Part shown: piece after piece, positions 28,974 through 29,840 of the stretch
Position numbering within the stretch: position 1 is the first letter of the stretch
How the letters are laid out: every line of letters begins with the position of its first letter
NCBI GenBank assembly: GCA_008933805.1
Contig: WBUH01000002.1
Span: 215,443 to 279,442, forward strand
DNA: 64,000 bases
Reading direction: 5' to 3'
From: Bacteroidota bacterium
GTDB taxonomy: Bacteria; Bacteroidota; Bacteroidia; UBA8524
Translations under genes and position numbers: made by a program
The notes under the pieces: generated by a model
Told to the model about the DNA's origin: nothing
The model's database searches: none
What the model saw: only the letters and a program-made list of their open reading frames with translations

Positions 28974-29073
28974 AGAACAGGATGTGAAATCCTGTTCTGT
29001 TAGGTATTTCCCCACGAAGGGTTTTAAACCCTTCGTGGGGTATGCCACAAATAGCAGCGGGCTTTATGCCCGT
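28974..29073. repeat. REP-like composite palindrome, copy 1
   Basis: Three hairpins in a row: A, AGAACAGGAT/ATCCTGTTCT with a 5-nt loop (28974-28998); B, CCCCACGAAGGGTTT/AAACCCTTCGTGGGG with a 1-nt loop (29010-29040); C, CGGGC/GCCCG with loop TTTAT (29058-29072). It lies immediately upstream of the transposase gene. Confidence 0.85.
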
Positions 29074-29104
29074 CGAGAGTTATGAAAGAATAAATGAAAT
29101 TAAA

Positions 29105-29527
29105 ATGGGACAAAATAAGTTATCGCTTTGGGTTCATTTGGTATGGGGAGTTAAAAAGAGAAGGCACCTAATTCACGAAGAGGCCAAGCAAATACTCTAT
29201 TCCAAGGTGCTTGAGGTGTGTGAAAGTAAAGGATATGATGTGGTTGAAATGAATGGTATGCCTGATCATGTACATATTTTATTGCGCCTTCACCCAACAC
29301 ATTCAATAAGTGAGATTGTAAAAAATATTAAGGGTAGCACATCTACATGGCTAAATCACCAAATTGAAATGGAGGAGTATTTTGAATGGCAAGATGGTTA
29401 CGGAGCGTTTTCAGTAAGCTCATATAAAGTAGGGGCGGTAATCAAATACATTCAAAACCAGCAACAGCACCATGCCAATAATGACTTTGACACGGAAATG
29501 AAATTTTTAAATTCATTTAGCCAATAA
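29105..29527 (+). CDS. IS200/IS605-type single-domain HUH transposase (TnpA/RAYT-like)
   Basis: 140 residues from the ATG at 29105 (MGQNKLSLWVHLVWGVKKR). An earlier in-frame ATG at 29042 lies in hairpin B/C of the flanking repeat and is unlikely. The HUH metal motif is PDHVHILL, and the catalytic tyrosine is expected in VIKYIQNQQQHH near the C-terminus. This is the Y1 transposase fold, which cuts single-stranded DNA at hairpins. It is intact, flanked on both sides by matching palindromic units, with no TnpB partner, so it is either a minimal IS200 element or a domesticated REP-associated transposase. Confidence 0.88.
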   Translation: MGQNKLSLWVHLVWGVKKRRHLIHEEAKQILYSKVLEVCESKGYDVVEMNGMPDHVHILLRLHPTHSISEIVKNIKGSTSTWLNHQIEMEEYFEWQDGYGAFSVSSYKVGAVIKYIQNQQQHHANNDFDTEMKFLNSFSQ

Positions 29528-29533
29528 ATCTTT

Positions 29534-29634
29534 AGAACAGGATGTGAAATCCTGTTCTGTTGTGTATTTCCCCCACGAAGGGTTTAAAACCCTTCGTGGG
29601 GCATACCACAAATAGAGGCGGGCTTTATGCCCGT
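29534..29634. repeat. REP-like composite palindrome, copy 2
   Basis: Same order of hairpins as copy 1: A at 29534-29558, B at 29571-29601, C at 29619-29633. It begins 7 bp after the transposase stop. Confidence 0.85.
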
Positions 29635-29686
29635 CGTTGAGCAGTATAGATTAGATTGAAATGTTTCTCAAAATGAAATTCATTTC

Positions 29687-29747
29687 GAACAGGATATAAA
29701 ATCCCGTTCTGTTGGGTATTTCCTTACGAAGGGTTTTAAACCCTTCG
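29687..29747. repeat. REP-like composite palindrome, copy 3 (degenerate)
   Basis: Hairpin A (29687-29709) has one mismatched pair; hairpin B is shortened to CGAAGGGTTT/AAACCCTTCG (29727-29747); hairpin C is absent. Confidence 0.75.
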
Positions 29748-29840
29748 AGAGGTATGCCCTTCGTTCAAAGCAACACTAAACATGTAAGATTACCCGTATT
29801 AATTTAATAGCATGGCAACCTATGTGCAAAATCAAAGCAG

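Follow-up and report, generated by a model that had tools for sequence, protein, structure and literature searches.

Among the systems described so far, those closest to the locus analysed here are the REP/RAYT systems (REPtrons, BIMEs and REPINs), in which a Y1 transposase encoded at a single locus is flanked by tagged hairpins that are also dispersed alone between genes. These hairpins form inverted pairs and clusters, fall into a class of their own for each transposase paralogue, and conserve the loop and the 5' tag while the stem covaries. The RAYTs belong to class 2 of the Y1 transposases, with the Y-motif signature Y...NP, whereas subclass 1.2 is marked by Y...Q..HH (PMC6006769). Subclass 1.2 proteins are closely related to the IS200 transposases, are generally without IS200-type end structures and carry the table entry 'REP: no' (Quentin 2018, PMC6006769). 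REPs with a GTAG tag are on record for other phyla; the CGTC repeats, which Bacteroidetes have as well, are without a known transposase (Di Nocera 2013, PMC3733652).

The window, that is, the whole stretch of 64,000 nucleotides that was analysed and whose positions are used for the locus, contains a Y1 transposase gene, tnpA, bracketed by two complete three-hairpin units and followed by a third, decayed unit. The features of the locus are as follows.

28974-29075, unit 1: three hairpins in the order A-B-C
28974-28998, minus strand, unit 1 hairpin A: inverted REP, AGAACAGGAT-GTGAA-ATCCTGTTCT, with stem AGAACAGGAT and loop GTGAA
28997-29001, tag of unit 1 hairpin A: AACAG, reverse-complemented
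29010-29040, no strand, unit 1 hairpin B: central palindrome CCCCACGAAGGGTTT-T-AAACCCTTCGTGGGG, perfect 15-bp stem, 1-nt loop
29050-29075, plus strand, unit 1 hairpin C: REP, CGGGC-TTTAT-GCCCG, stem-loop at 29058-29072, AATAG tag at 29050-29054
29105-29527, plus strand, tnpA: 140-aa HUH/Y1 transposase with the subclass 1.2 signature DHVH, WQ, YIQNQQQHH
29534-29636, unit 2: three hairpins in the order A-B-C
29534-29558, minus strand, unit 2 hairpin A
29571-29601, no strand, unit 2 hairpin B
29611-29636, plus strand, unit 2 hairpin C: AATAG tag at 29611-29615, hairpin at 29616-29636
29687-29752, unit 3, decayed: downstream of unit 2
29687-29710, minus strand, unit 3 hairpin A: decayed, imperfect
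29722-29752, no strand, unit 3 hairpin B: partly decayed, 13 of 15 pairs kept, 53.4 bits in the covariance model search

Units 1 and 2 share 92% identity, and hairpin C has been lost from unit 3. A single motif class, present in opposite orientations, accounts for both hairpin A and hairpin C (loops ATAAA/GTGAA versus TTTAT), with the tags pointing inwards. Folded as single-stranded DNA, units 1, 2 and 3 yield z-scores of -9.3, -10.7 and -5.8, respectively, and none of the 200 dinucleotide shuffles of each folds as well, so that the hairpins are far beyond chance expectation. An Rfam scan of the locus produced no match. The earlier note, made from the letters of this DNA, had described two nearly identical three-hairpin units around a 140-aa HUH/Y1 gene and a single orientation for all three units; every hairpin that it named was found in place, and the shared orientation was borne out. 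The decayed third unit that it reported, without a gene, is present as well, except that 50 bp rather than 55 separate it from unit 2.

The sequence and the predicted structure of TnpA both point to the IS200 branch. The protein matches Pfam Y1_Tnp (1.5e-31) and passes the NCBIfam IS200 model (95.5 bits, cut-off 55), but fails the NCBIfam REP-transposase model (36.3 bits, cut-off 80), for which its relatives score 23-38 bits. Among PDB sequences, it matches the TnpA of ISDra2 (2xm3, E=2.1e-11) and also that of IS608. The predicted fold (pLDDT 79) retrieves ISDra2/IS608 in Foldseek at about 1e-8 with probability 1.00 (best hit ISDra2, 4e-9), whereas the RAYT structure 4er8 is a weaker match (8e-6). 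All the subclass 1.2 motifs, DH[VI]H, WQ and Y...Q..HH, were found in the window TnpA. The Y motifs of the three paralogues in this genome read YIQNQQQHH, YIQNQQKHH and YIRYQEKHH, the Y...NP of class 2 being absent from them, and 50 of 57 relatives carry Y...Q..HH. Because the motifs, the low copy number and the host group match the description of Quentin 2018, we assign TnpA, as judged by its sequence, to subclass 1.2 rather than to the RAYTs (class 2). Like other subclass 1.2 proteins (PMC6006769), those considered here are about 140-150 aa long, come from Bacteroidetes hosts, and occur in few copies of low intragenomic identity, the other two tnpA products being 45-61% identical to that of the window. 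The described lack of REP or hairpin repeats nearby does not hold for the window tnpA, and we propose that the definition be revised in this respect. The GT[AG]G tag 5' of the hairpin does not apply here either: the consensus in the window genome is YAANAG, and GTAG was seen only inside the CAGTAG tags of some relatives.

When unit 1, which we denote class I, was searched by BLAST against the genome that contains the window (40 contigs, 4.29 Mb in all), 67 matches were obtained, whereas a protein search of the same genome with the window TnpA detected three genes only, at 100, 61 and 45% identity. Given so many unit matches for only three genes, the units are not the ends of a single element, and the unit is not an IS end; no multi-copy, near-identical, gene-bearing element was found in this protein search of the genome. 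A covariance model of the unit, with which 150 candidates were scored, gave 146 matches on both strands at E<=0.01, corresponding to at least 76 distinct places (a lower bound), most of which match on both strands because the unit is nearly symmetric. As judged with a crude ORF caller, 65 of these 76 places are intergenic, compared with 6.9% of random positions, and of the remaining 11, the majority overlap small ORFs that encode about 94-125 aa. The same model detected no class I unit in four other genomes of the family. The earlier note had proposed that many solitary intergenic copies alongside one or few transposase genes would speak for a REP/RAYT system; at least 76 places, 65 of them intergenic, and three divergent tnpA genes fit the REP-like pattern, so this reading stands as far as dispersal is concerned but not for the enzyme, which is not a RAYT by profile score, by its Y...Q..HH motif or by the YAANAG tag. 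Tandem class I clusters with a period of about 235-245 bp are located at G000 C5:31116-31930 and C5:73078-73649, and 39 of the 76 units have a neighbour less than 400 bp away, an arrangement resembling BIME clusters.

The 25 complete units that we aligned, taken from genome stretches around the matches, all have the order A-B-C, with the distance between the A and C loops fixed at 77-82 nt. Standard pairs fill 95.5% of the base-pair cells of this alignment (77.0% when shuffled), both sides have changed in 24 of the 31 stem pairs, and cells with a double change number 136, the expectation being 36.9. A shift of the pairing by one column lowers the score from 0.52 to at most 0.16. When the hairpins with TTYAY loops are pooled, a single motif emerges on either side of B, in inverted orientation: the tag YAANAG, a stem of 8 bp whose sequence is free except for a final T, the TTTAT loop and the second arm. 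The tag bases at -12, -10 and -9 from the invariant TT-A of the loop are conserved at A88, A89 and G80%; immediately 3' of the pooled hairpins in the window genome, the information is about zero, with no conserved base, and the units there share neither terminal inverted repeats nor a target duplication. With its two inverted REPs, each unit corresponds to what Di Nocera 2013 (PMC3733652) calls a tail-to-tail dimer, here with palindrome B inserted in the linker. Some REPs with a tag stand alone outside the units; they are among a further 29 hairpins of the same loop type in the examined stretches. The earlier note had remarked that the one-base loop of hairpin B would suit foldback recognition; more telling than this loop are the two outer hairpins, A and C, with their tags and the TTTAT loop. 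Most class I units are at most 82% identical to those flanking the window gene (tnpA1), and for this reason, part of the family may come from an older or lost enzyme.

Each of the three tnpA genes is bracketed by a module class of its own. The second gene (C1:305260) lies between class II units of the form ATTAC-N11-GGACTTAAGTCC-N11'-GTAAT. Searched for with no complementarity imposed between the two N11 arms, this pattern has 49 copies in the genome, and the reversed control pattern has none. The 49 copies contain 46 different 11-nt arms, and still 96.8% of the arm positions are paired, compared with 35% (at most 42%) when the arms are dealt among the copies; 36 copies are perfectly paired. 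Between related copies, there are 264 compensated differences versus 38 on one arm only. Stems that are variable yet nearly always paired, combined with conserved tips and feet, fit a substrate that is read as a hairpin; selection on the fold and template-switch repair are both possible causes of the pairing. At G000 C2:385810, 386565, 386893 and 397447, four class II modules lie close together, nearly identical and followed by the same tail, a recent local amplification. The third gene (C3:5128) is bracketed by two-hairpin units, namely, REP pairs 61 nt apart without B.

Within a sample of 395 genomes of the class, 88 contain matches to tnpA at E<=1e-25. Direct repeats shared by both flanks were detected for 25 of 57 relatives, compared with 5 of 200 cross-locus controls. 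Two Cytophagales-type MAGs have tnpA relatives (L063 and L064, 44% identical) flanked by REPs whose loop is likewise TTTAT and whose tags read CAATAG/CAGTAG (CARTAG type); genome-wide, this hairpin has 22 and 15 matches. In other relatives, the gene has an A-B-C module next to it, either on one side or on both, and the B hairpin of these modules resembles ATAGCCCACGGTTTAAACCGTGGGCTAT. A tree of 52 tnpA relatives divides into two clades with good support. Of the 29 members of one clade, 22 are flanked by long palindromes or paired TTYAY REPs, as opposed to none of the 23 members of its sister (p=8e-9), the other seven members of the palindrome clade being without long palindromes; among shuffled flanks, 2 of 260 carry such structures. 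On the tree, palindrome presence requires 5 changes, compared with at least 12 in 200 shuffles. These clade counts use presence and absence of palindromes only, the subtype labels having been set aside as unreliable: 'GCCCACGG' also matched the window's CCCACGAA, and the 'oneB' label of L154 is a run of N. Conversely, short CCC(GTA/TAC)GGG hairpins occur in 10 of the 23 members of the sister clade and in none of the 29 in the palindrome clade. That the hairpin type differs between the two enzyme clades is the strongest indication that the palindromes belong to these enzymes; the flanking hairpins also set both clades apart from subclass 1.2 as described (PMC6006769). In the sister clade, L042, L044, L139 and L047 have CCC(GTA/TAC)GGG arrays, with one orientation upstream of the gene and the other downstream.

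These observations are best read as a system of the REP/REPIN kind whose enzyme comes from the IS200 branch; it would be neither a RAYT system nor a conventional IS200. More specifically, we consider it probable that the locus is REPtron-like, with a single-copy subclass 1.2 TnpA between copies of its hairpin substrate, and with further, non-autonomous copies of the substrate scattered over the gaps between genes.

Several other explanations were weighed. The units could be structural elements maintained by the host (terminators, mRNA stabilisers, or nucleoid or gyrase sites) next to which the transposase is incidental. They are indeed strong intergenic hairpins, and there is a weak excess in convergent gaps (18/65 vs 50/291, p=0.056). 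However, divergent gaps contain units as frequently as any gap (16/65 vs 70/291, p=1.0), two intact, 92%-identical units bracket tnpA, a distinct class accompanies each of the three paralogues, the association with tnpA is clade-specific across genomes, and the units are absent from related genera and unmatched in Rfam, all of which makes host maintenance an improbable account. A terminator role in particular was rejected, the units being equally common in divergent and other gaps.

Slightly less probable still is an ordinary IS200/IS605 insertion sequence that has the palindromes as its ends, the solitary units being IS remnants or minimal IS-derived elements. The window enzyme resembles those of IS608 and ISDra2 in TnpA fold, in the HUH and Y motifs and in sequence, it passes the IS200/IS605 profile, and hairpins lie near the gene in both cases. 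Moreover, in some relatives (L062; L048, L049 and L066) tnpA is located between single inverted hairpins or inverted repeats rather than complete units, an arrangement that may be ancestral or IS-like. Against this explanation, the gene is not a multi-copy mobile element, near-identical copies being absent; units occur in at least 76 places for three genes, mainly without the gene; tnpA lies between two complete units, not within one; and the palindromes are kept as covarying structures instead of decaying as ends would. As differences from IS608 and ISDra2, no TnpB was seen beside the window tnpA, and no TTAC-type border is apparent at the unit. The minimal or ordinary IS200 that the earlier note had offered as its second option is thus clearly disfavoured by the many solitary copies and the three divergent genes.

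Another possibility is that the modules derive, as MITEs, from a transposon unrelated to tnpA (one of the DDE type, for example) and that tnpA was inserted near or between them. It finds a point in its favour in one genome, G057, where the A-B-C core sits inside repeats of about 240 bp with GGGGTGTCCGAAA/TTTCGGACACCCC ends, but given that shared terminal inverted repeats and target duplication are absent from the units of the window genome, the near-zero information just 3' of the hairpins, and the coincidence needed at three paralogues and in many genera, we regard it as very improbable. The G057 repeats (L237, L238, L239 and L240) are interspersed, and among nine genomes of the genus, they are confined to one species and absent in eight congeners.

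As regards movement of the units, no empty sites or insertion polymorphism were found among the nine genomes of the G057 genus, in which the congeners are only about 70-76% identical and the intergenic DNA is too diverged for junctions to be read; the Cytophagales pair has only tnpA and the REPs in common.

Under the REP/REPIN-like reading, and by analogy with the biochemistry of IS200/IS605 and TnpA-REP, TnpA would bind the REP hairpin on single-stranded DNA, for example, on the lagging strand, with the tag possibly serving as the guide that selects the cleavage site, and would form a 5'-phosphotyrosine link. The orientation of the units shows no association with GC skew (22/55, p=0.18) and hence no lagging-strand signal; runs of orientation along the contigs are not significant (p=0.23). 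In TnpA-REP, the tag guides the choice of the cleavage site, and stem requirements differ between systems (PMC8266576). REP-B-REP modules might then be cut and joined or copied to new sites, with the tnpA gene staying between the master copies. In the window genome, B would hold the REP pair together, and it is probably as a folded hairpin that B functions or is maintained; the two arms are free to diverge yet stay paired, as would be expected if the fold is selected or if, by template switching, one arm is used to repair the other. We advance only tentatively a broader scenario, in which the IS200 (class 1) branch of Y1 transposases in Bacteroidota gave rise to REP systems anew, and these follow a 'stem-free' code whereby TnpA would read only tags, feet and tips, and the stems would turn over rapidly while being kept paired by active palindrome repair, resulting in nearly copy-unique 11-nt arms.

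Compared with the REP/RAYT systems, this one has a different enzyme (class 1, subclass 1.2, as opposed to class 2), a different tag (YAANAG, or CARTAG in two other genomes, instead of GT[AG]G), paired REPs that usually differ in stem, and a third palindrome, B, between them. A search of open-access papers found no description of repeats for subclass 1.2, and the system, REP-like by behaviour and IS200-branch by enzyme, looks like an undescribed relative of REP systems. Subclass 1.2 has been recorded so far as IS200-related orphans without IS properties or REPs. Assigning cognate, clade-specific palindromes to it suggests that Y1 transposases have been domesticated into REP systems outside the RAYT branch, too. 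The hairpins provide a defined substrate for biochemistry and a possible origin for palindromes scattered across Bacteroidota genomes. Stems that are always paired and highly variable offer a sharp test of two questions: which parts of a hairpin are read by an HUH transposase, and whether palindromes are maintained by selection or by template switching.

The CGTC-tagged REPs reported from Bacteroidetes are likewise short, tagged intergenic palindromes, but differ in tag and loop, and were reported without a dedicated transposase (Di Nocera 2013, PMC3733652). The window genome also contains CGTC-ATGNTGAACTTGTTTCANCAT repeats that resemble this family, with 10 seen in the examined stretches (C1:53758, C1:287343, C2:203997 and C2:208740).
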